From an uncultured bacterium (lineage in GTDB: Bacteria; Bacteroidota; Bacteroidia; Bacteroidales; CAIWKO01), in assembly GCA_903862465.1 (NCBI GenBank), contig CAIOYH010000184.1, positions 1 to 40,711 on the forward strand: 40,711 nucleotides of DNA. Reading direction: 5' to 3'. Below the pieces are notes generated by a model. The model saw only the letters and a program-made list of their open reading frames with translations, made no database searches and was not told where the DNA came from. The position numbers and the translations under genes were made by a program. This document shows, one piece after another, positions 2,790 through 23,955 of this stretch. The number at the start of each line of letters is the position of its first letter. Position 1 is the first letter of the stretch.

Positions 2790-4460
2790 TTATTGTTTGA
2801 CGATTTTGAGTGTTTGAATGGCACGGTTCGCTGTTATTTTCAGGAAGTAAATTCCTTGTGTGAGGGAAGAAAAGTCTTGTTTTTCAATATTGGTTCCTTG
2901 CCACATAACTTTGCCTATCACGTTGGACAGTTCATAGGTTTCCTCACCTGTTTTATTGGTCATATTAATTTTATTGGTGAATGGATTCGGATAGCATTGC
3001 ATGTTTGATGACTTATTTGTGTAGGATTGAACTCCAATCGGACTCAATTCTATCACGTCGCCGGGCGTCAAAATGTGTCCTGTAAAGCCTGCATAGGTGG
3101 TTGGATAGCGATACACTCTAAACACGGAATTCATTTTCTCTTCGGGACGGACGGGATTGTTCGGGATAGTATCTCCTTGAATCAAGGGACCTGTATTGTC
3201 TGTTGGGCTCACATATTTCCATACGATTTGTCCGGCAGCAGTAACTTCGTAAAAGGTACCAAAAGGACCTGCATCTATCAAGGTATTGCCATTTGGCAGA
3301 CGTTGAGCACCTGAAATATCATGAGCAAAAACGGTATCGGGGGATGTCAAAGAATAGCTCCATGCGAAGTTGGTTGGTGCGAATGCTTGTCCGGTAGTAT
3401 ATGCATAATTTCCACTGACATCAACGGGAGGCGTGATTTCGTCTACAGTTGAATAATTGCGATTGACACCATTATTAAAACATAAAAGATTGCCGGCTCC
3501 CGGGCAGTCAGATTTTATCCATTCTACATCGTGTTGTTCAAAATATTTTTGGTTTGAAGTATTTCCGATTCCATAACATAATGGATTGCCCCAACGATAT
3601 ATCAAATCGCCACCTTTACCTCTGATTCCACCTGCATGAGAAGCCGATTGGGCGGTTGTAGTGCTATGGTCAACCACCCACAACTCGCTGTTGCCACGCA
3701 CACTCATAACAATTTGGTCGAAAGCTGCATTGTAGTCAATACAATTCATGTGATTCCAAAACAGAGGTTTGGTCCTGTGGTCGCCGGCGCAATCAATTAG
3801 TTCAGGATGGGCACTTGGAACCCCGTAATTTGATTTTGTTGCATCATGATTTTGAACCAAATGATCCCACACATGCCATTGCCAAACGACGGTTCCACCG
3901 GTTGGATAGGTAGGTTGGATTTCAATGATACAATCGGGTAAAATAAATCCTTTTTGATGTACATCAGACTGAAACGTAGCTGTGTCAAATCCTGCAGCTT
4001 CCACTTCTGCCAAAGTCTTTTTTTCGACCACTAGCATGATGATGTTTCCGTTGGGCAACTTTTTAATATCATGATGTTGCATATAAGTAGAAGTGGAATA
4101 ATCCATGCTCCATACCAAATTATCGTCCCAATCGTATTCTTCAATTCTGCCGCCTTCACCACCACCTGTGCCGAGGTTTCCTTGCGTCATGCAGGTGCGT
4201 AACAGATGTCCATTTTCTAATAAATAAACCGCTTGACCGGGCGCATAGGTGCTGTGAGTCCATTCGTGCAGCTTTTGTCCTTTGTTATTAATCAAATAGG
4301 TCATAGTGTTTTGCTTGGGAGCGAACAAGGTATAACCTTTGAAAGTTTGGTTTGTGTCGTTAATCAACACGCCTAATGTTTGTGCATGTAAGCCAATTAT
4401 ACTAGCATTAGTTAGTATAATGATACATACAAGGGTTGAGATAATTTGTTTTGTTTTCAT
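2790..4460 (-). CDS. Arylsulfotransferase (ASST)-like secreted protein with T9SS sorting domain
   Basis: GYTLFAPKQ…TYLINNKGQKLHEWTHS…HHDIKKLPNGNIIMLV…SAQRLPNGNT-type repeats; C-terminal CYPNPFTNKINM…QGIYFLKI. Confidence 0.8.
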   Translation of the reverse strand: MKTKQIISTLVCIIILTNASIIGLHAQTLGVLINDTNQTFKGYTLFAPKQNTMTYLINNKGQKLHEWTHSTYAPGQAVYLLENGHLLRTCMTQGNLGTGGGEGGRIEEYDWDDNLVWSMDYSTSTYMQHHDIKKLPNGNIIMLVVEKKTLAEVEAAGFDTATFQSDVHQKGFILPDCIIEIQPTYPTGGTVVWQWHVWDHLVQNHDATKSNYGVPSAHPELIDCAGDHRTKPLFWNHMNCIDYNAAFDQIVMSVRGNSELWVVDHSTTTAQSASHAGGIRGKGGDLIYRWGNPLCYGIGNTSNQKYFEQHDVEWIKSDCPGAGNLLCFNNGVNRNYSTVDEITPPVDVSGNYAYTTGQAFAPTNFAWSYSLTSPDTVFAHDISGAQRLPNGNTLIDAGPFGTFYEVTAAGQIVWKYVSPTDNTGPLIQGDTIPNNPVRPEEKMNSVFRVYRYPTTYAGFTGHILTPGDVIELSPIGVQSYTNKSSNMQCYPNPFTNKINMTNKTGEETYELSNVIGKVMWQGTNIEKQDFSSLTQGIYFLKITANRAIQTLKIVKQ

Positions 4461-4487: not shown

Positions 4488-6281
4488 TTAATGTATATAA
4501 ATCATCTTTTTACATAATTGGACATTGTTGGCTTTCAATACATAGAAATATGTTCCGCTTGGAAGCCTCATGCCGTTATCATTTGTGCCATCCCATTCGA
4601 CGGTATAATTTCCCTGCGAGTAATTTTTATTCAGCAGCGATTTTACTTGATTGCCTGAAAAATCATAGATAACAACATTAATATGTTTATACTCGGAGAT
4701 ATTGAATGCGATAGTAGTTTTATCTGAAAAAGGATTGGGATAATTTTGATTCAGGATGTCCTCGGGCGTGATGTAATCATCGCTGGGTTCTTTGCCCGTG
4801 AGGTCTGCGGGAGTGTAGTAATCAGGTGTAGCGCTTGTCATGGTGTTGCCGGGAGTTAAATCATGACCTGCTAATGCAGGATGGTCGCTAGTGTAACGAT
4901 ACGCGCGGAACACACCATTATAGGTAGGATAGTTATCCACTTTAATCTTCTTGATACCATCACGTGTCATTGGATTTATATATTCCCAAACGATGGAAGT
5001 ATCGGAAGGTTTCACTTCAAAGAAATGTCCGTCGTTCATGGAACATATCATGGTGTTGCCATTTGGCAAACGTTGTGCACTCGAACCAATAGTACTATAG
5101 AAAGACGTATTGTTTTTACTCGAAAATGTCCAAACAATTTGTTTCGAGACATTCTTTTTTTCTTTCATCAGATTTGCATCGGGCGAATTCACTATGGTAT
5201 AACCCGCATCCGGTGGATTGACAAAGGCTCCTGTATTTGTTCCTGAAGAATTCAAATATGGATTAATTTCAACAATATAGGATTGAGGGGTTAGTTCGAA
5301 CAAGTTTTCGGCATTATTGAATATCATGAAGTTTCCGGCGCCCGGGAGTCCCGGTTTTATCCATTGTATGTCGTGCGAACCACCCAATTGTTTTTGCCCG
5401 GCAGTTGCCTTTTCCCAATTTGCCAAAACCGAAGGAGGACTTCCACGATCATATTTGGCTGGGTCGCCAAAGCGGTATTTAAAATCTCCCAAACTGCTTG
5501 CCGCAAGTGTAATGCTGCTATCGGGATCGTTGGGCATAAAGGTATTGCCATGATCAATCACATAAAACTCGCCATGCACAGAATTAATGACAATCAAATC
5601 TAAACCTTGATTATAATCTAAGGAATTGCAATGTATCCAATCGCTTTTTACGGGATTGCCCGTAATATTCAAATCTATCCTTCCCGGGGTGTTGACAATA
5701 ACGCCATAGGTAGGCAGGGCAGGATACATATCTTGAACCACATGATTGAAAAACCACCATTCCCAAATCACAGTTCCTGCTCTGTTTACCTCAACAATGC
5801 AATCCATTTGAGGATTCGTATAGGTTTGAGAGGCATCGCATCCTGCTGCCAAACATTGAGCCGAAGTCAAATCTTTATTTGCAATAAAGATAAAGGTGGA
5901 ATCGCCCAACTTTGTATTATATATCTTTGCAAAATCGTGATGACCATGATAATTGGTTCTAGTTTCGGTATATTCCCAAACGATATTGCCATTCCAATCC
6001 AACTCACGCCATACATTTTGATTGCTTGGATTTCCGCCTACGGCATCTAATATGGTTCCTGCTTCTGTAAATCGAGGGTTAGTGCCAATGTTCCATGTGT
6101 GCACCACATGACCTTCCATATCTATTAAATAGGAAGTTCCTCGTGTGCCAAATAAGGTGTAACCATTGTACGCATTGGCTTCATCCCAATAGCGCGTTTC
6201 GGTTTTCACCATAAAACTTTCTTGGGCAATAGCAGCTATTGTCCAAAAGATAATGCTTGATAATAGAATTAGTTTTTTCAT
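4488..6281 (-). CDS. Arylsulfotransferase (ASST)-like secreted protein, paralogue of the adjacent gene, with FlgD-like/T9SS C-terminus
   Basis: GYTLFGTRGTSYLIDMEGHVVHTWNIGTNP…SAQRLPNGNTMIC; C-terminal NYPNPFSDKTTIAF…DGTNDNGMRLPSGTYFYVLKANN. Confidence 0.8.
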   Translation of the reverse strand: MKKLILLSSIIFWTIAAIAQESFMVKTETRYWDEANAYNGYTLFGTRGTSYLIDMEGHVVHTWNIGTNPRFTEAGTILDAVGGNPSNQNVWRELDWNGNIVWEYTETRTNYHGHHDFAKIYNTKLGDSTFIFIANKDLTSAQCLAAGCDASQTYTNPQMDCIVEVNRAGTVIWEWWFFNHVVQDMYPALPTYGVIVNTPGRIDLNITGNPVKSDWIHCNSLDYNQGLDLIVINSVHGEFYVIDHGNTFMPNDPDSSITLAASSLGDFKYRFGDPAKYDRGSPPSVLANWEKATAGQKQLGGSHDIQWIKPGLPGAGNFMIFNNAENLFELTPQSYIVEINPYLNSSGTNTGAFVNPPDAGYTIVNSPDANLMKEKKNVSKQIVWTFSSKNNTSFYSTIGSSAQRLPNGNTMICSMNDGHFFEVKPSDTSIVWEYINPMTRDGIKKIKVDNYPTYNGVFRAYRYTSDHPALAGHDLTPGNTMTSATPDYYTPADLTGKEPSDDYITPEDILNQNYPNPFSDKTTIAFNISEYKHINVVIYDFSGNQVKSLLNKNYSQGNYTVEWDGTNDNGMRLPSGTYFYVLKANNVQLCKKMIYIH

Positions 6282-6300: not shown

Positions 6301-6419
6301 GATTCTACAAATTGCTTTTTCATCGTTGGCCTTCGATTTTTAAAATGCTCATTTACTTGAGTAAACTGCGCTTTTAAAAACCTTGTCCGCCTTGAAAAAT
6401 CTAATTTTTAGAACCCCTC
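6301..6419 (-). repeat. Dispersed ~118-bp intergenic repeat, copy B, upstream of the 4488..6281 gene; overlaps the stop codon of the 6408..8693 gene
   Basis: Near identical to 2410-2527; contains inverted repeat TTTACT-CA-AGTAAA. Confidence 0.9.
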
Positions 6420-8693
6420 ATTAATTAATATCATTTTTTTTGTGATGAGTTGATTGTCGAATTGCATTTTGCACATATAAATTCCGTTAGGATAATTCTT
6501 AGCATTCCATTGATAGCTATGGAGTCCGCCAGATAATGTTTCATTTACCAGCGTGGTTACCAATTGCCCAAGTGGGTTATATATACTTAATGTAACATTT
6601 TTAGCTTCCGAAAGGGTAAATTGAATCGTGGTAGCAGTGGTAAAAGGGTTCGGAAAGTTTTGGTATAGTTGAATACCTGATGGGGAATTTCCTTCATTAT
6701 TATTTATGCTCGTTAAAGAACTATCATATTTTCTGGCGACTCTAAACCCGATATGATAATAGGGATGATTAGGGTCTTGAGGTCCACGGTAATAGGATGG
6801 ATTACGATTGGATATGCGAGAGTGTCCATCATTTTTAGCGGAAACCATAAGCCCATTATACCAGTTTCCCCCACGCATGCCACGATATGGTTTCCCATCG
6901 GGCATAATAAAACCTGTCGTTGGACCTGTTGGGTTATCAAAAGGACTGGTGCTATAATACGTTTGACCGTACCAATCGTTGATTAGTTCCCATGCATTGC
7001 CTTGCATATCATACAACCCATAACCATTGGCACCATCTAAGGTTTGGAAAGAGGTGGCTGTTGAGAGCCAGTTGTAATCGGATTTTTGTTTTAAAGTTCC
7101 ATTGTAGAATCCGGCGGGCGTTGTATAAGGATACAATGCGATGTTGGTACTTTCGTAGGGGTCGCCTGAGTTGGGTAGGTTTGCCCTTGTGGGTTCAATA
7201 CTATCGCCGCAGGCATAATTATAATAAGGGCTAGTATGTCCACCTCTTCCTGCCCATTCCCACTCAGCTTCAGTTGGGAGACGATACCCATTCTTGGTGA
7301 AGTCGCAGCTCCATGTGGTGAGATTATAACATTCGTTTAATCCGTTTTGCCGACTCAGCCAATTGCAGAATGCCGCATCGCCAAACCACATACTGCCTAC
7401 CACAGGATGATAAGCACGGAAGTCAGAAATAGTAAAAATAGTGCCATCATATTTTATGCTGTAATAGGAAGCAGTTTTATTTAATAAACAATATACATCC
7501 GTACCACCATGGGCATAAACAGTGTCATTTCTAACTTCTATCAAGCCTGCGAGCAAGCAAGAATTCAAAAATGAAACATACTGTTGGTTGGTTGTTTCCG
7601 TTCTTGACATATAAAAAGAATCTACTTTAACGGAATGTAAAGGGGTTTCGTCGCTTGGATGTCCCGGGTCAACGAAGCCAAAATGGTCGCCCATGCTAAA
7701 GGTATCAGCAGGAATCAAGGCATCTGAAAAGAAGAAATCATTGTTATCTAATCCACCTCTAACCAACAATACATAATCTTTAACGGTTTTGTTATGATAA
7801 GAAACTATGCCATAGCCCGTATGAATATCCCAAGCCTGTGTGGGCGTGTTATACATGCTGGTTGATGACCAAAAATTCCCTGTTTGAATGCCTGTAAAGA
7901 AAGTGTTATCAAATGAAGGGTTCATTTTGTTCACTATGTTCAAAGATTGCAGTTCTTTTATATTCGGTATTCTCCAATCTGTTTTTCCTGCTAAGGAAAA
8001 TGTATTAGCATAAGCCAATGCTTGTTCCCACGTCATGGAATCCTCGGCTTGATTTTTTTGCCAAACTAAGCCCGTATAATTATCTTTAATGGTGCCATTA
8101 CCAACATCCGTGAAATGTGGTACAGAAAATGTGGTAGTTATTGGGGTACGAACGGCTCTGACATGAAATCTCTTATTTCCCCCGGCGCTTACAGTTTCCG
8201 TTTTAGGATGTGCGCCAATGCCTCCGCCTGAATTGCATGCCCATATTTTGGTTGTATCGTCCACACGTTTTTCACTTGTCCACCAATAGTCAGCAAGTGT
8301 CTTTTTAAAATAAACTGTATCGAGCGCAGGATTGATATGATTGAAATGATGGATGCTAAACAGCTCAATGGAAGTTGGCAAACGCCAATCTGTGTATCCT
8401 GCTAAGACAGAATTGTTGCAATAGGTTTTAGCATTCTCATAGGTCATTTCTCCTCCATCTATTTTTTGCCACATCAAGCGGGTGTTGTTATCCGTAATGG
8501 TTCCATCTCCATTATCTGTAAAAGATAGAGGATTGATAACAATATCTGCATCTTCGCCATGCGTAGTCGTATAGCTTGTATTCTGTCCTGTTTCGGGGAG
8601 TTTAAAGGGAAGTAGTTTTTGAGCTTGAATGCTCGAAACCGATAATCCTATACATATTGTCAGAATTAGCTTTTTTAAGGTAGTCTTCTTCAT
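6408..8693 (-). CDS. Secreted protein with two DUF1566 (Lcl C-terminal-like) domains, a formylglycine-generating-enzyme (FGE-sulfatase/SUMF1-like) domain and a T9SS tail
   Basis: Two copies of F(T)D.G.GTI.DN.T.L.WQK…DWRLP…EL; YRLPTEAEWEWAGRGG…GLYDMQGNAWELINDWYG…RGGNW…GFRVAR; C-terminal LYQNFPNPFTTATTIQF. Confidence 0.87.
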   Translation of the reverse strand: MKKTTLKKLILTICIGLSVSSIQAQKLLPFKLPETGQNTSYTTTHGEDADIVINPLSFTDNGDGTITDNNTRLMWQKIDGGEMTYENAKTYCNNSVLAGYTDWRLPTSIELFSIHHFNHINPALDTVYFKKTLADYWWTSEKRVDDTTKIWACNSGGGIGAHPKTETVSAGGNKRFHVRAVRTPITTTFSVPHFTDVGNGTIKDNYTGLVWQKNQAEDSMTWEQALAYANTFSLAGKTDWRIPNIKELQSLNIVNKMNPSFDNTFFTGIQTGNFWSSTSMYNTPTQAWDIHTGYGIVSYHNKTVKDYVLLVRGGLDNNDFFFSDALIPADTFSMGDHFGFVDPGHPSDETPLHSVKVDSFYMSRTETTNQQYVSFLNSCLLAGLIEVRNDTVYAHGGTDVYCLLNKTASYYSIKYDGTIFTISDFRAYHPVVGSMWFGDAAFCNWLSRQNGLNECYNLTTWSCDFTKNGYRLPTEAEWEWAGRGGHTSPYYNYACGDSIEPTRANLPNSGDPYESTNIALYPYTTPAGFYNGTLKQKSDYNWLSTATSFQTLDGANGYGLYDMQGNAWELINDWYGQTYYSTSPFDNPTGPTTGFIMPDGKPYRGMRGGNWYNGLMVSAKNDGHSRISNRNPSYYRGPQDPNHPYYHIGFRVARKYDSSLTSINNNEGNSPSGIQLYQNFPNPFTTATTIQFTLSEAKNVTLSIYNPLGQLVTTLVNETLSGGLHSYQWNAKNYPNGIYMCKMQFDNQLITKKMILINEGF

Positions 8694-11936: not shown

Positions 11937-12154
11937 GAAATGGAATTTACCCTAATTGATACATTATTTAAAAGTGAGGTGGATTACATTGTCATTAGGT
12001 CATTAATGGTCATTAGGTCAGCCCGATACTGTGTGGGCGGGACATGAGTGGGAGCTTCTACCGAACGGGGTTGGATTTGGACTAAACTGTAGCATGCTAT
12101 AACATAACAAGCTGTTCTGCTGCATTATCATCATAATGCACTGCGACTACACAT

Positions 12155-12371
12155 TGAATTGTAGCATGATTGAATTGAATTGTAGCATCAGAACATTAAT
12201 GTGTAGCATCAGAACATTGAATTGTAGCATCAGAACATTAATGTGTAGCATCAGAACATTAATGTGTAGCATCAGAACATTGAATTATAGCATCAGAACA
12301 TTAATATGTAGCATCAGAATATTAAAGTGTAGCATCAGAACATTGAATTGTAGCATCAAAATATTGATTCA
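12155..12371. repeat. Tandem repeat array 3, 21-bp period (gaattgtagcatcagaacatt / aatgtgtagcatcagaacatt)
   Basis: 10 consecutive 21-nt units; the first 5 nt toggle between gaatt and aatgt-type; located between divergent sigma factor and mcrB. Confidence 0.96.
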
Positions 12372-12465: not shown

Positions 12466-12473
12466 TATCTTTG
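12466..12473 (+). promoter_or_regulatory. Putative Bacteroidota -7 box TATCTTTG of mcrBC
   Basis: TAnnTTTG consensus 18 bp before ATG at 12492. Confidence 0.55.
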
Positions 12474-12491
12474 CTAAAAAATTCAAAAGCA

Positions 12492-15400
12492 ATGGCGTCA
12501 GAAAATAATAACAATTCACAACTAATAAATGGTTCCAACTCGATTCAACAGGAAGACCCCGTGAAGGCTATGATTGAAGGATATAAAAATGTTTTGGCAA
12601 CGAAGCGTTTAGACAACGAAGTTTATAAATGGGAATTGGTGAATGAATTTAAGGGACGACCTAATACGGATGCCCCCGATTTTACTAAAGAGATTAAAAG
12701 CATTAAGTTTAGTAATCTCATTTATGCTATGGGGGTTGCCGTTATTAACCATATTGCTAGAGAAAAGCCCGAGGAATTAAGAGTTCTTTTTAAATATCTA
12801 TTTGATAGCAGTAAAGATTTACCTGAGCGGTTCGATTTTTTTAAGGAGGAATCCTTGAAGCTTTACAGATCCTTAGGCGAAACCTTAAGTCATCATCAGG
12901 ACGAAAGAACAATAGCCACCTATTTGACATACCACAATCCACAGGAATATACATTTTATAAATCTTCTTTTTACAAAGCATATTGCAAGCTTCTAAATAT
13001 AAAAGAAGCAGGGAAAAACAAGAAATATGCTCACTATTTGGCGCTACTAAAACAACTCATTGAAAAATATATTGAACCTGATGCAGCATTAATCAATCTC
13101 GTGAAAATTATCATCCCTGAGTATTATGATGGGACGAATCATTTGCTTTTGGCTCAAGATATCCTATATGAAATGCTAGAAAATAAAGAACAAAACGATT
13201 ATTGGGTTTTTCAAGGGAACCCTAAAATATATGATATTGTAGGGGCATTAAATGATAATGAATTAAATGCTTGGCGCGTTAAAGCACATGAGGATAAGAT
13301 AAAACAAGGCGATAAAATTATTTTATGGGTTACGGGAAAAGAACCGGGCTGTTATGCGCTTGCTGAAGTAACTTCGGAAGTATTTGAAGGATTAGACGAA
13401 GAACCCGAATTAAAATACTACACCGAAAACAGTGTAAATGAAGTTGCGAAACGAGTGAAAATAAAAATCACTCATAATTTGGCGAACAATCCAATTACAA
13501 AGGAGCAAATTGAAAGTGAAGCTGAGTTAGCAGATTTAAAAGTTGGAAACCAAGGGACCAATTTTGTTGCCACCAAAGAGCAATATGATACATTGTTAGA
13601 TATTATTAGTTCTAAAAGTAGCAGTGCTTATGTGGCTGTTAAAAAAAACCTTGATCAGGATAAACTAAAATCATTTCTAGCAATTCTACGTGATTTTATT
13701 AAAGCAAATAGCCTTTATCCAAATGACGAAAGATTAAGCTTTAATGTTCGTAAAAATAAAAACCGACTTGTGTTTTTAATAGGAAATCGATACAGCTTTA
13801 GCATAAATAAATTAAATAATAAAACCATGTTTTCGTTTATTTCCAAGGAGGTTTTGTCTAAAGAATATGAAGATTTTAAAAGCCCCTTAGGTGTTATTGA
13901 AGCACATTGGAATATTATTGAAAATTTAAATGGGTATGAAAATAATATTAATGAAGGTCTTTTAACTGAGCTGGAAAGATCAAATAAATGTGCGTTTAGA
14001 AAATATACCAATCAAGATTTTATTAATGATGTTTATCAAATTACTAGTCCTATGAATCAGAATCAAACATCTCAAGAGAATTTAAAAATTGAATTTATTG
14101 ATTGGCTTGTAGCAAATCCTACAAGTAATTACTTTACCAATGATAAACAAAGAATAGAAAAAGCTTTAGATCAATATAACTCATATTTTGATGAGGATAT
14201 TTATAATTGCTCTATTGATAATTTTGATACAATCCTTAGAATTTTAGATAAAACGCTGTATCAAGACACAACAAATCGTTTTTTAGAATTTAGTAAAGGA
14301 AATAGTAGTCACCAACCTAGAGCTATACTTGGAGAACAAAACTATATGAAATTCCTTAAAGAAAAATTTGCTTATCAACCCAAGGTCGCATTAAACATCA
14401 TCCTTTATGGTCCTCCCGGAACAGGAAAAACGTACAAAACTATTTTTAAGGCAGCCGAAATAGTTGAAAATAGAAAAATTGAAAACTTTGAAGAAGCTAA
14501 GCGTATTTTTAACGACAAACTCAACTCGCAAATTGAATTTATTACGTTTCATCAAAACTATAGTTATGAAGATTTTATCCAAGGATTAAGACCTGATGTT
14601 GAGAATGAAGGAAGTTTAAGTTTTGAAAGAAAAGATGGTGTTTTTAAAAGAATTGCAGATAGAGCTTTGAATAATATCAAAGAAAGTGAGAAAGTGCCGG
14701 AGGAAATCAGCAAATCAATTGCTTTTGTTAATGCTTTGGAAGCTTTAAAAGATCAAGTTATAGAGGCAAAAAATCCAATAAAAATCAACGAAACTGCCTA
14801 CTTTATTGCGGCGGAAGATGACGCTTTCAGATATACTGCCGATAATTGGACACTAAACGATAAAGGGTTTAATGGATTCAGAATGAAATATTCTGACTTA
14901 ATAAAGTTTAATGATGCTAATGTACAAACGAGAAAAGATATAAAGGAATTAAGTAATGTTTCGGGATTAGCCAAGCAACACGCATCTTATTTTATTAAGA
15001 CCTTTGAAATAATAAAAGGATTGGTATCTAATGAAGCTCTTAAAATAAAAGTAGTTACAAGAAATAACTATGTTATCATTATTGATGAGATAAATAGAGC
15101 CAACATTTCTAGAGTGTTTGGAGAGCTTATCACTTTGATTGAACCTGATAAGCGTTCTCATGGGTCCGTACCTCTTAAATGCACTTTGCCATCAGGTGAA
15201 GATTTTATTGTTCCGTCTAATCTCTACATAATAGGCACCATGAATACGGCAGATAAATCCATAGCGCTTTTGGATATTGCTTTGAGAAGACGTTTTGAAT
15301 TTGAAGCTATGTATCCCGATTATGATTTGGAAGGCATTCGTGATACTGAAATCTTAAAGAAGATAAATACAGAAATTATAAAACTGAAAGGATATGATTT

Positions 15401-15590
15401 TCAGATAGGACATTCCTATTTTATGGAATCTAAGGATGATCCTTACAACTTGGTGAAACGAATGAATAAGAAAGTGATTCCTCTTTTGTTGGAATACTTT
15501 ATGAATAATAAAGAGGAAGTTGAAAAGATTATCAAAGCCGCGGGATTAAATCTGAAAGTTGGCAGTTGGCCTCTTGAAATAACGGAATAG
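12492..15590 (+). CDS. mcrB: McrB-type AAA+ GTPase/ATPase with an internal EVE (PUA-like) domain; ORF-track start at TTG 12471 probably too early
   Basis: EVE: DYWVFQGNPKIYDIVGAL…AWRVKAHEDKIKQGDKIILWVTGKEPGCYALAEVTS; Walker A GPPGTGKTY; Walker B VIIIDEINRAN; IIGTMNTADKSIALLDIALRRRFEF. Confidence 0.92.
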   Translation: MASENNNNSQLINGSNSIQQEDPVKAMIEGYKNVLATKRLDNEVYKWELVNEFKGRPNTDAPDFTKEIKSIKFSNLIYAMGVAVINHIAREKPEELRVLFKYLFDSSKDLPERFDFFKEESLKLYRSLGETLSHHQDERTIATYLTYHNPQEYTFYKSSFYKAYCKLLNIKEAGKNKKYAHYLALLKQLIEKYIEPDAALINLVKIIIPEYYDGTNHLLLAQDILYEMLENKEQNDYWVFQGNPKIYDIVGALNDNELNAWRVKAHEDKIKQGDKIILWVTGKEPGCYALAEVTSEVFEGLDEEPELKYYTENSVNEVAKRVKIKITHNLANNPITKEQIESEAELADLKVGNQGTNFVATKEQYDTLLDIISSKSSSAYVAVKKNLDQDKLKSFLAILRDFIKANSLYPNDERLSFNVRKNKNRLVFLIGNRYSFSINKLNNKTMFSFISKEVLSKEYEDFKSPLGVIEAHWNIIENLNGYENNINEGLLTELERSNKCAFRKYTNQDFINDVYQITSPMNQNQTSQENLKIEFIDWLVANPTSNYFTNDKQRIEKALDQYNSYFDEDIYNCSIDNFDTILRILDKTLYQDTTNRFLEFSKGNSSHQPRAILGEQNYMKFLKEKFAYQPKVALNIILYGPPGTGKTYKTIFKAAEIVENRKIENFEEAKRIFNDKLNSQIEFITFHQNYSYEDFIQGLRPDVENEGSLSFERKDGVFKRIADRALNNIKESEKVPEEISKSIAFVNALEALKDQVIEAKNPIKINETAYFIAAEDDAFRYTADNWTLNDKGFNGFRMKYSDLIKFNDANVQTRKDIKELSNVSGLAKQHASYFIKTFEIIKGLVSNEALKIKVVTRNNYVIIIDEINRANISRVFGELITLIEPDKRSHGSVPLKCTLPSGEDFIVPSNLYIIGTMNTADKSIALLDIALRRRFEFEAMYPDYDLEGIRDTEILKKINTEIIKLKGYDFQIGHSYFMESKDDPYNLVKRMNKKVIPLLLEYFMNNKEEVEKIIKAAGLNLKVGSWPLEITE

Positions 15591-15591
15591 C

Positions 15592-16956
15592 ATGACTACG
15601 AATCTCTACGAATTTCAAAACAAACAGGAATTTACAGGCTCTTATCAGGGCTTGGAGGAATTTTTGGATGAAATTTGGCGTAAAAGAGAGAAGTCAACTT
15701 ATTTCATGGAGGAAGATACGGAGAAAACAGAGGTGCAACAGTTCTTGCAGTTCATCCATAAAACCAAAGAGATTAAGTCGAATAAATATGTAGGTGTTAT
15801 TCATTTCGAGGGCAACAGAATTAATTTGTTTCCCAAAATATTTTTCGACAATACGAGAGATGCTTCACAAGATACCCAAGCTATACACAATCATATTTTA
15901 TGGTGGCTAAGTTATTGTCGGAAAATAAAATTCCCGAATTATCAAACTTCTCTTGGTAGCACCAAAAGTGATTTCTTTGAGATATTAATCTATCTGTTTT
16001 CAAAATATACGACAGAATTATTATCTAATACGGTTTATCAACAATATGAAGAAATAGACCAAGAGTTATCGTTTATAAAAGGACGTTTAAATACGAACGA
16101 CTATATCAGCGAGAACTTATCGAAAGGCAGATGGCATAAGTTAAACTGCACTTATGACGCATTCGTGATTGATAATTCGTTCAATAGAATCATCAAGTAT
16201 GTTGCAACATTGCTTTATAATGCTACGAAAACTGCGGACAATCAAAGAAATCTCAGAGAAATATTATTTATTCTTGATGAAGTAAGCGATGTTAAAGTAA
16301 CGGCTAAGGACTGTCTTAAAATTCAATTCAATCCGTTTTTGGGCGACTTTGAAACGGTTCGGGATTATTGCTATTTGTTTTTAAACAATAGTATTTCGTT
16401 GGATTATAAAAATGATTTGAAACTGTTTGCTTTTTTGTTGCCGATGGAATATGTGTTTGAAGATTTCATCTTTGGATTTATTGAAAAAGAAATTGAACAA
16501 GTTAAAACTTTATCGCAACTTCGAACAACGTATTTGGATACGAAGAAGTCATTTTTATTAAAACCCGACTTGTATCTAAAGATTGGCGAGAAAAATGTTA
16601 TTGCCGACACCAAATACAAAATCATTTATAGTGACATACATGATTCAAAGAATGGCATTTCGCAGAATGATTTGTACCAAATGTTAGCATACAGCGTTAG
16701 ATTCAAGGTGGAGGAAATCATCTTGTTTTATCCTGACACGATAAATAACTATCAAGAACAGGAAAACGAAATCATCATAAAAGACGCATTGGCAGACGAG
16801 ACGGAAATAAGCATCAAAACCTTTCAATTGCCAATCATCAATCGGCAATTGTTTGAGCAGGAATCTATCGAAAATATTGAATTAAAGAATTTGTTTAAAG
16901 AAACGAAATGTAAATTAAAAGAACGATTAGAAGCAATTCTGATTCCGTTCGTTTGA
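15592..16956 (+). CDS. mcrC: McrC-family restriction subunit with PD-(D/E)xK nuclease motif
   Basis: Immediately downstream of mcrB; LLKPDLYLKIGEKNVIADTKYK catalytic motif; ITK-type N-terminal domain (VGVIHFEGNRINLFPKIF). Confidence 0.88.
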   Translation: MTTNLYEFQNKQEFTGSYQGLEEFLDEIWRKREKSTYFMEEDTEKTEVQQFLQFIHKTKEIKSNKYVGVIHFEGNRINLFPKIFFDNTRDASQDTQAIHNHILWWLSYCRKIKFPNYQTSLGSTKSDFFEILIYLFSKYTTELLSNTVYQQYEEIDQELSFIKGRLNTNDYISENLSKGRWHKLNCTYDAFVIDNSFNRIIKYVATLLYNATKTADNQRNLREILFILDEVSDVKVTAKDCLKIQFNPFLGDFETVRDYCYLFLNNSISLDYKNDLKLFAFLLPMEYVFEDFIFGFIEKEIEQVKTLSQLRTTYLDTKKSFLLKPDLYLKIGEKNVIADTKYKIIYSDIHDSKNGISQNDLYQMLAYSVRFKVEEIILFYPDTINNYQEQENEIIIKDALADETEISIKTFQLPIINRQLFEQESIENIELKNLFKETKCKLKERLEAILIPFV

Positions 16957-17384: not shown

Positions 17385-17900
17385 AACCCGAAAATCAAAT
17401 CTCGTTTCCCGAAAATCAAATCTCGTTTCCCGAAAATCAAATCTCGAAACCCGAAAATCAAATCTCGAAACCCGAAAATCAAATCTCGTTTCCCAAAAAT
17501 CAAATCTCGTTTCCCGAAAATCAAATTTTGTTTCCCGAAAATCAAAACACGTTTCCCGAAAATCGAATCTCGTTTCGCGAAAATTAAATCCTCTATGACA
17601 AAATGTCAGTCCATTTCTCCGAAAATCAAATCTCGTTTCCCGAAAATCAAATCTCGAACTGCGAAATTCAAATCTCGTTTTGCGAAAATCAAATCCTCTA
17701 TGACAAAATGTCAGTCCACTTCCCCGAAAATCAAAAATAAAAGTCGAAAATCAAATCTTGTTTCCCGAAAATCAAATCTCGATTCCCGAAAATCAAAACT
17801 CGTTTCACGAAAATCAAATCTCGAAACCCGAAAATCAAAAATAAAAGTCGAAAATCAAACGTCGCATCGCGAAAATCAAAAATAGAAGTCGAAAATCAAA
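17385..17900. repeat. Tandem repeat array 4, 21-bp period (cccgaaaatcaaatctcgttt), about 24 units with some 20-bp variants
   Basis: Repeated (c)gaaaatcaaatctcg(ttt/aaa)ccc; two 42-bp variant blocks containing ctctatgacaaaatgtcagtcca; aaaataaaagtcg variants are 20 bp. Confidence 0.97.
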
Positions 17901-18109
17901 AGTTGTTTGCGTTTCTTATTTAATTTCAACATTTATATTTCTGAATTGCCACCCCTCGTTCGGCTTATGCTGTGCCTAATTGTCATCAATTCGGACTGCG
18001 CCTCCAAGTCGCCCCCCGCCTATTCTCTTTAGGTTAGTAAGTAATCTGCCAAATGAAACAATAATTCTTTACATTATTGTGTTCTATATAAACAAAAAAA
18101 CAAACACCT

Positions 18110-18460: not shown

Positions 18461-19009
18461 TTACAAAATCGCTACAATTTCTTCATTCTTCGGTTCCCAA
18501 GCACCGGTTTCGTTCGACACAATGAACTGACGGTTCACGTCTTTGGTGTCAATCACTTTCATGCCATTCAAAGGCGGCGCATAAAAATGGAGCGTCACCG
18601 AATGGATGTCGGTTGGGTTTTCGATGCGATGATAAATCCCTTTTGGAACTTCCACAAAATCCCCATTCGATAAAGGAATAGTGGCAATGTGATGATAGTC
18701 GCTATCGTAAGCCACATTGTTGCCACCATCGGTGAGCACATAAACCACGCCAAACGAATTGCCATGATCGTGAATGTAGCTGCTTTGTTTCGGTTTCCAA
18801 TTCATCAAAATGGCTTCGAAGTTCTCACTTCTGAAAATCACATTTCTGCCATAAGGCAAATCTTCGGGATACAACAAATCGCCTTTCAGTTCATCCATCG
18901 TAAAGATAAAATCTTTCAGAATCGGAATCAATTCCGCGGGCTGTTGGATGTTGTTTTTGTTTTCGGTAAACAGCTTGTCAATTGCTGTTAGTTTTTCAAT
19001 TTTGGTCAT
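18461..19009 (-). CDS. Cysteine dioxygenase-family cupin protein
   Basis: FEAILMNWKPKQSSYIHDHGNSFGVVYVLTDG…VPKGIYHRIENPTDIHSVTLHFYAPPL. Confidence 0.82.
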   Translation of the reverse strand: MTKIEKLTAIDKLFTENKNNIQQPAELIPILKDFIFTMDELKGDLLYPEDLPYGRNVIFRSENFEAILMNWKPKQSSYIHDHGNSFGVVYVLTDGGNNVAYDSDYHHIATIPLSNGDFVEVPKGIYHRIENPTDIHSVTLHFYAPPLNGMKVIDTKDVNRQFIVSNETGAWEPKNEEIVAIL

Positions 19010-19169
19010 ATTATTTCGGTTAATGGTACTATTAATTTATTTTTGTTTTTTGATGCAAAGGAATTAAAACGTAGGTGTACACAGATTTATTCTTTTCAAT
19101 TTAGATATCCTTATGAGCTTGAACTTTTTTAGATAAAAGTATTCGCTTTATCAGAGATATATTTATGGA

Positions 19170-19853
19170 TTAGCCAATAAGCAATCCTTCGATGCGTACT
19201 TTGTAGCTTCCATCTTTTAATTTCGTTACGGCATTCACCAATCCACTGTGGCGCCATTGCAGCATACAACGACGTGGGAGAAACCAATAGCGAACACCTA
19301 TTTTGATGTCTTCTTTAGTTTCTTTTATAATGCCTTCGTAGGCTTGAGAAACATAATACCCGATGTCAACAAAACCTTCAGCGCGAGGACGCAAAGGACC
19401 TGTTACGTTCCAATTGATAACACCATTGCGAGCATCCACCGACGAAACCACGCCACAGTGGGTGATAGGACAACCGCACGACATGCCCATCGGACGACCA
19501 ATCATCACATCGCCTTTTTTCACACCAAGTTCTTTCACAAGAGTTGGATTGTAAGGCAATATGGTTTCCTTTGGACCGGGTTCATCAGGAAAGCAATCTA
19601 AAATGAAATCGAAATCACGTTTCAAATTGTCTTTCCAACCGAGTTTGTCGCCCATGCCCATGCCTTCTTTTGCACAGATAAAGCAGTCGGTTGTATCTTT
19701 TTTGTCTTCAATTTTGTCGGCAATGTGAATGCATTTTTTTAATTCATCTTCACCCTTATCCACCATAGCGGCAAAATCTTCACAGGTTTTGTATCCACAG
19801 GCTGCACAATCTAATTTTGGCAGCAATTCCATTGTTTTTGTTGTTGTTTCCAT
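19170..19853 (-). CDS. 4Fe-4S cluster-binding protein (N-terminal CxxCxxxxC FeS motif) of unknown function
   Basis: LPKLDCAACGYKTCEDFAAMVDKGEDELKKC; further conserved-looking GMSCGCPITHCG and WFLPRRCMLQWRHSGLVN. Confidence 0.75.
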   Translation of the reverse strand: METTTKTMELLPKLDCAACGYKTCEDFAAMVDKGEDELKKCIHIADKIEDKKDTTDCFICAKEGMGMGDKLGWKDNLKRDFDFILDCFPDEPGPKETILPYNPTLVKELGVKKGDVMIGRPMGMSCGCPITHCGVVSSVDARNGVINWNVTGPLRPRAEGFVDIGYYVSQAYEGIIKETKEDIKIGVRYWFLPRRCMLQWRHSGLVNAVTKLKDGSYKVRIEGLLIG

Positions 19854-19856
19854 AGT

Positions 19857-21038
19857 TTACTTATTTGAAAAAATTGATTTTAGTTGTAATATTTTTGTTT
19901 CTAAAGTTTCGATAAAATAATTGATGTCTTCTTCGGTATTAAAGCGTCCTAAACTTAATCGAACGGCTCCACGTGCCTCGAATGGGTCTTTGCCGATGGC
20001 TTGCAACACATGGGATGCGCTTTTCGTGGTGTCGTTGTTGGAACATGCCGATCCGGCTGACACAGCAATGCCTTTTTCGTCGAGCAACAACAAAAGCCGA
20101 ATCGTTTCGCCTTCCAAGCCGCTGATGCCGAAATTCAAATTGTTCGACAAACGTTGGGTCATACTTCCATTCACATAAAAGCCTTCAAACCTATTGTCTA
20201 ACTCTCGAATAAGTTTATCTCGGAGTGATGTGATGCGTTTGATTTCCGTTGGAAGTTCTGCCATGCATAACTCGGCAGCTTTCGCAAAACCGGCAATCCC
20301 TGCTATATTCTCTGTGGTGCTGCGCAAACCGAATTCTTGTCCGCCTCCATGAAACAAAGGCATAATGTTGGTGTTCTTTTTCACAAATAAACATCCCACA
20401 CCTTTTGGACCGTAGATTTTATGCGCATTCAATGACATTAATGTAATATGCTGCGCCACGACATCTATCGGAACTTTCCCAAAAGACTGACAAGCATCCG
20501 TATGAAAATAAACATCACGCTCCTGACATAGCCTCCCGATTACTTCTATCGGCTGAATGGTCCCAATTTCATTGTTGGCATGCATCACCGAAACCAAAAT
20601 AGTTTTCGGATTAATCATGCGACTCAGTTTATCCAAGTCAATCAAGCCATCACTGTCCACTGATACGTATGAAACAAAAAATCCTTGCGTCTCCAACCAT
20701 TTGCAGGTATTCAAAATGCAATCATGTTCGATAGCCGAAACGATGATATGATTTCCTTTACTACGGTTTGCAAAAGCGATACCTTTCAGCGCAAGATTGT
20801 TTGATTCGGTTCCGCCCGAAGTAAAAATCAGTTCATCGCTTTGCGCATTTATACCACTTGCTAAGGAAGAACGCAACTCGTCCAAAGACTGTTTGGCTTG
20901 CGTCCCAAAAGAATGTAGGCTCGAAGCATTCCCATAAACATCTTTAAGATAGGGAAGCATGCTTTCGAAAACCCTACTGTCTAATTGGGTGGTTGCAGCA
21001 TTATCGAAATAGATTTTCCGGGTGTTATTCTCCGACAT
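19857..21038 (-). CDS. Cysteine desulfurase (NifS/IscS family); start likely ATG at 21038 (MSENNTRKIYFDNAATT)
   Basis: YFDNAATTQLD…FTSGGTESNNLALKG…MHANNEIGTIQPI…DACQSFGKVPID…SLNAHKIYGPKGVG…SAGSACSN. Confidence 0.92.
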   Translation of the reverse strand: MSENNTRKIYFDNAATTQLDSRVFESMLPYLKDVYGNASSLHSFGTQAKQSLDELRSSLASGINAQSDELIFTSGGTESNNLALKGIAFANRSKGNHIIVSAIEHDCILNTCKWLETQGFFVSYVSVDSDGLIDLDKLSRMINPKTILVSVMHANNEIGTIQPIEVIGRLCQERDVYFHTDACQSFGKVPIDVVAQHITLMSLNAHKIYGPKGVGCLFVKKNTNIMPLFHGGGQEFGLRSTTENIAGIAGFAKAAELCMAELPTEIKRITSLRDKLIRELDNRFEGFYVNGSMTQRLSNNLNFGISGLEGETIRLLLLLDEKGIAVSAGSACSNNDTTKSASHVLQAIGKDPFEARGAVRLSLGRFNTEEDINYFIETLETKILQLKSIFSNK

Positions 21039-21726
21039 AGAAAAGATCGTTTTCCATAGTACGCAGCACTCCGAAGTGATTTTTTGCGCCAATTTCTTTC
21101 TTGCCTACGCAAATGGTACAAGTTCCAACGGGTGGATTTCCTTTCAAAAACATCGGATGTTCTATATCTTTCGATTTTAAGATGTCGCGCACAATAGGAT
21201 CAATGCCTATACCGTACAAGGCATTACTTTCCACCACGGTAATACCTTTGGCAGCCTCGAGTATTCTGTAGCGGAACACTTCACGCTCAGCTTGCGACAC
21301 CAAATCAATCTTGGTGATCACACTGATATCGGCTAAGGTAAGCATCGGACCAATTTTCCGTGGCAGATTCATGCCGCTTGTAGCTTCGAGAACCACGATA
21401 CCCAAAGAGTTTTCGATATAAGGAGAACATCTCAGACACAGACCTGCCGTTTCAACAAACAGATATTCGGCACCTTGTTGTTCTGCCCATTCCACCACTT
21501 CATCTAACACCACCACATTGCAATGGTCGGGACAAAGCTCGCCGGAATATATTTTCTTGGTGGGGATGTTAAACTCATTGCGCAACACCTCATCTTCATC
21601 GGCATAAAGCACATCTATTTTTAAATAAGCAGGTTTCAAACCTTTTTTCTGAACTCTGCGAATTACTTGTCTTATGACTGTTGTTTTGCCGCAAGTGGGC
21701 GGTCCTGCAAAAATTATTAATTTCAT
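21025..21726 (-). CDS. CobW/HypB-like P-loop GTPase with C-terminal CTICVGKK motif
   Basis: IIFAGPPTCGKTTVIRQVI; VVLDEVVEW; FVETAGLCLRCSP; ITKIDLV; GTCTICVGKKEIG. Confidence 0.75.
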   Translation of the reverse strand: MKLIIFAGPPTCGKTTVIRQVIRRVQKKGLKPAYLKIDVLYADEDEVLRNEFNIPTKKIYSGELCPDHCNVVVLDEVVEWAEQQGAEYLFVETAGLCLRCSPYIENSLGIVVLEATSGMNLPRKIGPMLTLADISVITKIDLVSQAEREVFRYRILEAAKGITVVESNALYGIGIDPIVRDILKSKDIEHPMFLKGNPPVGTCTICVGKKEIGAKNHFGVLRTMENDLFYVGE

Positions 21727-21765
21727 CGGATTCTATGTATTTATGTTATGATTAATTAAAAGTGA

Positions 21766-22614
21766 TTAGTTGGCTTCAACACCATTGGTTTTTCTTCTGT
21801 TGAGATATATCTGATAGCTTGTCGCCAAATCTTTTATCTGTTCGCTAAAAATCTGATCGGTGATTTCTTCGCCGGCGCGGATGCGTTTCCTGAATTCAAG
21901 CATCACATCATCAATTTTTTTCAAGCCTAAGGCTGCCATCTTCTCTTCGGCGTTGGTGGTAATCATCTTTTGCATCGCGCCGTTTCTCATTATGATTCTG
22001 AAATCAGACAAAAGGGCGATGCGAGGATCGTGAGTAACGAACACAAATATCTTATCATATTTCTTCAACAGTTTAAGCGCTTTGGTGCGATGAATGCCTG
22101 CATTTTCAATTTCATCTAATAAAATAATAGGTGAGTTGCCAATAATTACCGCATCGGCAATCAACAGCGAGCGCGTTTGTCCGCCCGAAAGTTCGGTCAT
22201 AGCAGTTTCACGTATGATAGCTTCCCCGGTCAACTGATTCGCAAAGTCGAGTGTCTCTTCAATCATCTGCTCTGATTTTTCCGAACCGCGGATTTTGGCG
22301 TGAATTTTCAAAAATTCGCCAACAGGCAAGTCGGATAAAAAATTGGTATGTTGCGAAATAAGCGCGATAGGGTGTTTGGAGGGGTCGAATGAAAAGTCTT
22401 CGGCAATAGGCTCATCATTAATCAATATTTGACGCTCTGATGGGGTGTTGCAATTTGCAAAAAGTTCGATGTCGTTTATTAGGGTGGTTTTGCCACATCC
22501 TGTGGGACCAACGATACTGATGATATCGCCCATTTTAAGCTCAAAACGCTCAACTTTCTCGCGGGAGCCATCCTTTCCGATGCCTCCAATAATAGTTATT
22601 TTATTAATTTCCAT
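21766..22614 (-). CDS. ABC-type ATPase (no adjacent permease)
   Basis: GPTGCGKTTLIN (Walker A), ELSGGQTRSLLIADAVIIGNSPIILLDEIENAG (signature and Walker B), FVTHDPR. Confidence 0.85.
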   Translation of the reverse strand: MEINKITIIGGIGKDGSREKVERFELKMGDIISIVGPTGCGKTTLINDIELFANCNTPSERQILINDEPIAEDFSFDPSKHPIALISQHTNFLSDLPVGEFLKIHAKIRGSEKSEQMIEETLDFANQLTGEAIIRETAMTELSGGQTRSLLIADAVIIGNSPIILLDEIENAGIHRTKALKLLKKYDKIFVFVTHDPRIALLSDFRIIMRNGAMQKMITTNAEEKMAALGLKKIDDVMLEFRKRIRAGEEITDQIFSEQIKDLATSYQIYLNRRKTNGVEAN

Positions 22615-22646
22615 GACTTGTTTTTATATGGTTAAAAAAATTTCTG

Positions 22647-22654
22647 CAAAATTA
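22647..22654 (-). promoter_or_regulatory. Putative -7 box TAATTTTG for the ABC/GTPase/NifS/FeS operon
   Basis: TAnnTTTG on minus strand, 32 bp upstream of the ATG at 22614. Confidence 0.45.
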
Positions 22655-22678
22655 CTACAATAGTCTATCAAATTAGTG

Positions 22679-22686
22679 TACTTTTG
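22679..22686 (+). promoter_or_regulatory. Putative -7 box TACTTTTG for the Crp/Fnr gene
   Basis: TAnnTTTG on plus strand in the divergent intergenic region. Confidence 0.4.
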
Positions 22687-22770
22687 CATGGAAGTTTTTA
22701 CCCACCATGATTAAATTTTTAATGTTTTGGTATTTATTTTTATATTAACCTGTTTTAAATCTCTGTTTAT

Positions 22771-23460
22771 ATGTCTATTGGAGGAATATCTCAATACAAC
22801 ACGTGGCTGAAAAAGCTATCGCTGCAATTCATTTCGGAAAAGGATTTCGATAGAATTGACAAGACTTCTGTCACTTTGAAATTCAAAAAGGGCGAAGTTA
22901 TCCTCAAGCAAGGTAATCAACCGACGCATGTGGCTTTTTTACAAAGCGGCATCGTAAAATTTAATTTTGAAAGTGAGGGGGACAAAAATACCATACTTAC
23001 TATAGTGTCGGCGCCAAGGATATTGGGGGGTGCCAATTTGTTTTATAAAGACAATAATTTGTTTTCGATAATTGCGGTAGAGGAGTGCGAGATTATTTTG
23101 ATTGATTCCGATGTGTTGCTCGATTTGATGAGCAACAACGGGAAGTTTGCCGTGGTGCTCTATCAAATTGCTTCGGATATGTTTAAGAAGTCTATTTTCA
23201 ATTTTATCAGTTTGGCAAACAAACAAAAAGAAGGACGGATTGCCGACATTATCTTGTATCTTTCGGAAAATGTGTATCACAATGCCGAGTTTAATTTGGC
23301 TTTGACACGGAAAGAATTAGCCGAATTTGCCTGTTGCTCTGCCGAAAATGTGATCATGACCTTATCGAAATGGCAAACCGAAAAGATTATTACCATGACG
23401 GGGAAGCAGTTTGCGATTAAAAATATGGAGAAGCTGAAACAAATTAGTAGGGTGGGTTGA
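22771..23460 (+). CDS. Crp/Fnr-family transcriptional regulator
   Basis: cNMP-like domain FKKGEVILKQGNQPTHVAFLQSGIVKF; HTH LALTRKELAEFACCSAENVIMTLSKWQTEKII. Confidence 0.9.
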   Translation: MSIGGISQYNTWLKKLSLQFISEKDFDRIDKTSVTLKFKKGEVILKQGNQPTHVAFLQSGIVKFNFESEGDKNTILTIVSAPRILGGANLFYKDNNLFSIIAVEECEIILIDSDVLLDLMSNNGKFAVVLYQIASDMFKKSIFNFISLANKQKEGRIADIILYLSENVYHNAEFNLALTRKELAEFACCSAENVIMTLSKWQTEKIITMTGKQFAIKNMEKLKQISRVG

Positions 23461-23602: not shown

Positions 23603-23714
23603 CAGGATGCATTAGATTATGCAGTCGTATCATGGCTTTGATCCATACTACGACTATTTATGTGATGAGGGAAATAAAAACTGAATATTGATTTTCACGT
23701 CAGCATAAAGGGGA

Positions 23715-23955
23715 GAAGCATCACAGTGATGCAGAGAAGCGCCACAGTGATGCAGAGAAGCGTCACAGTGATGCAGAGAAGCGCCACAGTGATAAAGAGA
23801 AGCGCCACGGTGATAAAGAGAAGCGTCACGGTGATGCGGAAGAGCGTCACAGTGATACAGAGAAGCGTCACAGTGATGCGGAAGAGCGTCACAGTGATCC
23901 GGAGAAGCATCACAGCAATGAGGAAGAGCGCCACAGTGATGCAGAGAAGAAAAGT
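23715..23955. repeat. Tandem repeat array 5, 21-bp period (cacagtgatgcagagaagcgt)
   Basis: Units start at 23722, 23743, 23764, 23785, 23806, 23827, 23848, 23869, 23890, 23911, 23932. Confidence 0.97.

Follow-up and report, generated by a model that had tools for sequence, protein, structure and literature searches.

GTPases of the UreG/HypB kind insert nickel during the maturation of urease and [NiFe]-hydrogenase. Proteins with a PF04060 domain, such as RnfB and the large subunit of the corrinoid iron-sulfur protein (CFeSP), share an N-terminal four-cysteine [4Fe-4S] domain. The known system of assimilatory sulfate reduction comprises CysDNC, CysH and siroheme sulfite reductases. Here we describe a gene cluster that bears on all three systems, found on contig CAIOYH010000184.1 (40,711 nucleotides, all of it analyzed and referred to below as the window) from an uncultured bacterium of the Bacteroidales, whose genome assembly amounts to 4.2 Mb on 230 contigs and is 96% complete. 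The cluster encodes a soluble ABC-type ATPase, a predicted metal-binding GTPase and a 4Fe-4S protein (FeS protein), which form a conserved core that probably works in sulfur assimilation, between sulfate and cysteine. A map of open reading frames (ORFs) and profile searches confirmed the six genes, with their coordinates, that a first-pass annotation made from the sequence alone had named in this region. The genes of the unit are:

21766..22614, minus strand: soluble ABC-type ATPase, 282 aa (PF00005, E=2.5e-17), first gene of the operon
21025..21726, minus strand: predicted UreG/HypB-type metal-binding GTPase, 233 aa (PF02492, E=7.6e-13)
19857..21038, minus strand: NifS/IscS-type cysteine desulfurase, optional member (PF00266, E=3.8e-81)
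19170..19853, minus strand: FeS protein (PF04060, E=5e-11)

Transcription on the minus strand runs in the order ABC ATPase, GTPase, NifS-type desulfurase, FeS protein and, after a gap of 160 bp, a cysteine dioxygenase (CDO)-like cupin.

A conserved three-gene core

Using the GTPase as a query against 84,980 species genomes, we identified 80 loci with identities of 67–99%, some 50 of which belong to Bacteroidales or close kin. The other carriers are Schekmanbacteria, Acidobacteriota, Planctomycetota, Omnitrophota, Elusimicrobia, Syntrophaceae, Gallionellaceae, one Patescibacteria bin, Methanocella and Methanoregulaceae. The core is found in anaerobic bacteria and archaea from many phyla. The ABC ATPase gene adjoins the GTPase gene in 76 of the 76 loci that have room upstream, and the FeS protein gene is present in 74 of 76 (the exceptions are L032 and L042). 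Independent occurrence of these genes in relatives, which the first-pass annotation had named as evidence against a dedicated cluster, was therefore not observed. The desulfurase is found in about 57 of the 80 loci and is missing from the archaeal loci and from most others outside the Bacteroidales. Gene order is kept across phyla, and the short median gaps (9 bp between ABC ATPase and GTPase, 0 bp between GTPase and NifS) support operons. The ABC ATPase, the UreG/HypB-type GTPase and the PF04060 FeS protein are a fixed three-gene core with NifS as an optional addition; of the four-gene core first proposed, these three genes stand together and the desulfurase does not belong to the fixed set.

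No description of the unit was found in Pfam, NCBIfam, the PDB or the literature searched. This and the neighbourhood analysis of the 80 loci support the view, already put forward in the first-pass annotation, that the cluster is dedicated and undescribed, and show it to be widely distributed. In a tree of the GTPase, archaea branch at three separate points and Planctomycetota at two or three, a pattern that is consistent with horizontal transfer and is no proof of it. Within the order of the source genome the core is sporadic, occurring in seven of 149 genomes, in one of which a gene is split. Searches of plasmids returned no match to the FeS protein, and their sole match was a GTPase of the second type described below, in Fusobacterium.

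Components of the core

In profile searches the GTPase matches UreG (4hi0, E=1.5e-10) and HypB (4lps, E=1.7e-8), and its LCPDH motif aligns onto the CPH metal site of UreG (4hi0 and 5xkt). With a CobW/HypB/UreG domain, a PF02492 score above the cut-off and metal-site cysteines, it has the sequence features of a metallocentre-insertion GTPase. The cysteine motifs that had been noted earlier in a CobW/HypB-like protein are present (GLCLRC and CTIC), as is LCPDH, and Cys65, His68, Cys97, Cys100, Cys203 and Cys206 are invariant in 82 GTPase sequences. The protein shares with UreG and HypB the family, the P-loop and the Cys-Pro-x-His at the CPH site. However, it has additional invariant CxxC pairs (97/100 and 203/206), it always occurs together with a soluble ABC ATPase, and the unit encodes neither urease nor hydrogenase. 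Scores against the equivalog models fall short of the cut-offs for both HypB (TIGR00073, 41 bits against 121) and UreG (TIGR00101, 33 bits against 204). The GTPase may work like HypB or UreG and is classed as neither; its kinship and invariant Cys-Pro-x-His metal site fit a role in metallocentre maturation. The ABC ATPase was correctly described as having no permease: no permease ORF adjoins it in the window, and none is common to the 80 loci. The permease partner that marks an ABC transporter is missing.

The desulfurase keeps both the HKIYG motif with the pyridoxal-phosphate lysine and the SAGSAC catalytic cysteine loop, as expected of NifS/IscS proteins, and scores 472 bits against the NifS model TIGR03402, under its cut-off of 531. 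Its ORF as called mechanically begins at a TTG at 21092. With the likely start, an ATG at 21038, the overlap past the GTPase stop is exactly the 14 bp that had been reported. The unit contains no IscU or SufB scaffold, again as first noted, and the two SufB/D proteins of the genome are encoded on other contigs; the linkage of desulfurase to scaffold that marks the ISC, NIF and SUF assembly systems is thus not found here.

The FeS protein begins with the PF04060 [4Fe-4S] domain (Cys16, Cys19, Cys24 and Cys41), whose closest relatives in the PDB are the corrinoid iron-sulfur protein and RnfB. Unlike in CFeSP and RnfB, the domain is followed by a C-terminal domain that is unrelated to theirs by sequence or fold search, and the unit has no corrinoid or Rnf partner. 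This C-terminal half (residues ~72–227) is mostly beta in a structure model with a mean predicted local distance difference test score (pLDDT) of 92.5. It belongs to no Pfam family, and neither the full-length model nor the C-terminal model has a fold match in the PDB at E<=0.001. Across 73 FeS sequences, Cys16, 19, 24 and 41, Cys128, His132, Cys196 and His202 never change, nor do six arginines (Arg79, 120, 157, 188, 201 and 220); Cys57 and Cys60 are conserved in about 75%. The earlier description of a 4Fe-4S protein with additional cysteine motifs holds. Conservation predicts a second metal site made up of Cys128, His132, Cys196 and His202, and the invariant residues also suggest an anion-binding surface. 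The FeS protein is probably itself the metalloenzyme that the GTPase and the ABC ATPase serve.

The first-pass annotation had seen in the cluster a maturation machine for an unknown metalloenzyme. The maturation part of this proposal agrees with a UreG/HypB-type GTPase whose metal-site residues are invariant. The FeS protein has an invariant [4Fe-4S] motif and a second set of two cysteines and two histidines and may be the client, so that a separate one is not needed. Should there be one nonetheless, the GTPase, the ABC ATPase, NifS and the FeS protein as carrier or scaffold would mature a separate metalloenzyme. The invariant GTPase residues would suit this arrangement, as would the presence of NifS as a sulfur donor in most Bacteroidales loci. 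However, NifS is dispensable, and besides regulators no other enzyme gene is common to most of the 80 loci, so the client would be unlinked almost everywhere. We consider a separate client unlikely.

Association with sulfur assimilation genes

Matches to sulfur-assimilation probes are concentrated beside the core, making up 31 of the 408 genes within 3 kb compared with 10 of the 458 genes further out (Fisher p=1.8e-4). As the probes were drawn from these same loci, we also give the contrast without the probe sequences (22 of 399 versus 9 of 457, p=0.006); related loci are not independent in this comparison. In 18 of the 80 loci, at least one sulfur gene falls within 3 kb of the core. The core is followed by CysC-CysD-CysN in L080, by a sulfate-binding protein in L081, by CysK-CysE in L031 and by CysE-CysK in L218. 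An ATP sulfurylase gene, confirmed by PF01747, is tail-to-tail with the core in L083, and CysN/CysD are convergent with it in L094; L041, L055 and L057 are also among the clearest cases. Omnitrophota loci carry O-acetylhomoserine sulfhydrylase and CysK-like genes near the core, cystathionine lyase is a further neighbour, and a sulfatase family gene adjoins the core in L088, L094 and L101. Regulators of the Rrf2 family, the superfamily of CymR and IscR, occur in 35 loci. Given CysC-CysD-CysN, ATP sulfurylase, the sulfate-binding protein, CysE/CysK and the Rrf2 regulators as neighbours, it is probable that the core works in sulfur assimilation, on the way from sulfate to cysteine.

Several of these neighbours (CysE/CysK, cystathionine lyase and the Rrf2 regulators), together with NifS, would also suit a module that supplies Fe-S clusters or persulfide during sulfur starvation. 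In such a module the FeS protein would store or transfer clusters or sulfur made by NifS, and ATP- and GTP-driven release would sustain the synthesis of cysteine and clusters under sulfide shortage. Close to the core, the Methanocella locus has genes that by eye look like SufC and SufB. However, the source genome already has SufB/D, and cores that lack NifS stand beside sulfate activation genes (L080, L083 and L094), suggesting that the sulfur comes from an oxidised compound and not from cysteine. We regard a supply role of this kind as improbable.

A possible role in the reduction of oxidised sulfur

The core resembles assimilatory sulfate reduction in that sulfate activation and cysteine synthase genes adjoin it and in that the source genome encodes an APS (adenosine 5'-phosphosulfate) reductase elsewhere. 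However, none of the core proteins is homologous to CysH or CysI. The source genome carries CysC-CysD-CysN (L175) and a CysH with the APS-reductase motifs CC...CxxC (L174), and should therefore make sulfite. PF01077, the domain of siroheme sulfite reductases (NIR_SIR), was not found in this genome or in any core protein. It is found in none of the 21 Bacteroidales carriers examined (the source genome and 20 others) and is missing in 32 of the 41 carriers examined overall. In G316, G319 and G328 sulfate-activation genes adjoin the core, yet no CysH, AprA or PF01077 was detected.

It is possible, and we propose it tentatively, that the three proteins of the core act in sulfur assimilation as a single functional unit, which works as follows. 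The GTPase would bind metal at its conserved Cys/His site. In concert with the soluble ABC ATPase and its hydrolysis of ATP, it would load or activate the second centre of the FeS protein at Cys128/His132/Cys196/His202, and NifS, where present, would provide sulfur for the clusters of the FeS protein. The matured FeS protein would accept electrons through its N-terminal [4Fe-4S] domain and act on an oxidised sulfur compound, at a step between sulfate activation and cysteine synthase. Its substrate might, most specifically, be sulfite (or APS or 3'-phosphoadenosine 5'-phosphosulfate, PAPS), reduced without siroheme. That siroheme-free reduction of sulfite or (P)APS is the chemistry of the core is a doubtful proposition when taken by itself. 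The full version, for which we likewise see rather little chance, is that the FeS protein represents a new fold and acts as an assimilatory reductase of sulfite (or APS/PAPS) that does without siroheme, is matured at its metallocentre by a dedicated pair of GTP- and ATP-driven proteins, and has spread horizontally among anaerobic bacteria and methanogens.

A number of observations weigh against this proposal. No homology links the core to any reductase, and conservation is the sole basis for predicting the second metal site. No probed sulfur gene lies within 3 kb in 62 of the 80 carrier loci, and nine of the 41 carriers examined have a PF01077 protein as well as the core. The carriers are metagenome bins, in which absences may be gaps. 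PF01077 is in any case rare in the order of the source genome (10 of 149 genomes), and while a match of the APS/PAPS-reductase type is present in at least roughly 75–80 of these 149, counted by match length, some 60 or more of the positive genomes have neither PF01077 nor the core. Another route must therefore exist, which makes the argument by elimination weak; the lack of PF01077 is general in the order and is not in itself sufficient evidence that the core reduces sulfite.

Mutual exclusion between the core and PF01077 in the order was considered and set aside: the seven core genomes and the ten PF01077 genomes do not overlap, but the overlap expected among 149 genomes is only about 0.5, so the result is uninformative. 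The loci of 20 core-less relatives showed no shared alternative sulfite reductase beside CysH, nor any other gene common to them at that place. In one core-less genome of the order, an ORF that by eye looks like an AprA flavoprotein adjoins CysH (L186:9032-10936).

If the core does reduce sulfite or (P)APS, it would provide a siroheme-free route from sulfate to cysteine and would help explain anaerobic Bacteroidales that are expected to make sulfite yet have no recognisable sulfite reductase. Even otherwise, it is a widespread undescribed metalloprotein system of three to four genes, driven by nucleoside triphosphates and with an apparently unassigned fold.

A second type of GTPase-ABC cluster

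GTPases of a second type, about 38% identical to those of the core (type 1), keep the main Cys/His set and the ABC partner and are found without the FeS protein in other Bacteroidota. The type 2 pair occurs at L111-L118, L214-L216 and L220, and also in Fusobacterium vincentii. It lies with SBP_bac_6 genes, in some cases also with DUF1858, and often beside genes for TonB, FecCD and Peripla_BP_2. Type 2 clusters thus share the GTPase-ABC pair with the core and differ from it in third partner and neighbours; as far as found in the literature searched, they are themselves undescribed. From the difference in third partners it follows that the GTPase and the ABC ATPase make up a reusable module, for which at least two alternative partners exist. 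Type 2 loci often adjoin a gene resembling uroporphyrinogen-III methyltransferase.

The company of TonB, FecCD, Peripla_BP_2 and SBP_bac_6 genes raises the question of whether the core itself is a module for metal acquisition or handling that is tied to sulfur only indirectly. However, the type 2 pair has SBP_bac_6 in place of the FeS protein, and no uptake genes are common to the type 1 loci. We think a metal module very unlikely.

Regulation and flanking genes

Four further features flank the unit in the window:

22615..22770, no strand assigned: divergent promoter region that separates the ABC ATPase gene from the Crp gene, intergenic in the ORF map
22663..22678, minus strand: operator-like element CACTAATTTGATAGAC, common to many Bacteroidales upstream of the ABC gene
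22771..23460, plus strand: divergent Crp/Fnr-family regulator (PF00027 and PF13545)
18461..19009, minus strand: cysteine-dioxygenase-like cupin, a neighbour outside the conserved unit (PF05995, E=1.3e-7)

The operator-like element recurs in many of the 35 Bacteroidales upstream regions compared, and in L035 it is a clear dyad, GTCTACCAATTTGGTAGAC. In scans of nine genomes it is mostly convincing only at the core promoter, so regulation looks local. A wider regulon around the motif was rejected, as the extra matches per genome are about as frequent as with a reversed control and none is beside sulfur genes. A Crp-family gene is present in 39 Bacteroidales loci. The suggestion that it couples the cluster to oxygen or redox state is not supported for the window, since its Crp protein has none of the N-terminal FNR-type cysteines. 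Comparison of cysteines across the 39 relatives showed that the window's clade lacks the N-terminal CxxC...C and distal Cys with which FNR holds its [4Fe-4S] cluster, whereas most other neighbouring Crp copies in Bacteroidales have them.

The CDO-like gene reported after the 4Fe-4S gene is present, 160 bp downstream, and lies outside the unit: in the sister locus L031 its place is taken by CysK-CysE, and homology between the two loci does not continue beyond the FeS gene. CDO also adjoins the core in L048 and L061. In four Bacteroidales loci (L043, L044, L045 and L061) a gene for a HydE-like radical SAM protein is located between NifS and the FeS gene or immediately after the FeS gene. Two other Bacteroidales loci have a gene for a PBP_like_2 (PstS-like) binding protein near the core (L218:17242-18195 and, by eye, L219:7798-8754).

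Other features of the window

A search for known RNA elements found none in the window. Tandem arrays with a period of 21 bases and multiples thereof, built from differing units, lie at 262-462, 2664-2773, 12151-12369, 17387-17903 and 23713-23949, and two of them flank the operon. The start of contig C15 (L174) seems to hold similar repeats. Two proteins resembling arylsulfotransferases (PF05935), each with a type IX secretion tail, and an adjoining protein with FGE-sulfatase and Lcl_C domains are encoded at 2790-4460, 4488-6281 and 6408-8693. A restriction pair of the McrBC type, with an EVE domain in the McrB-like protein, occupies 12471-16956.

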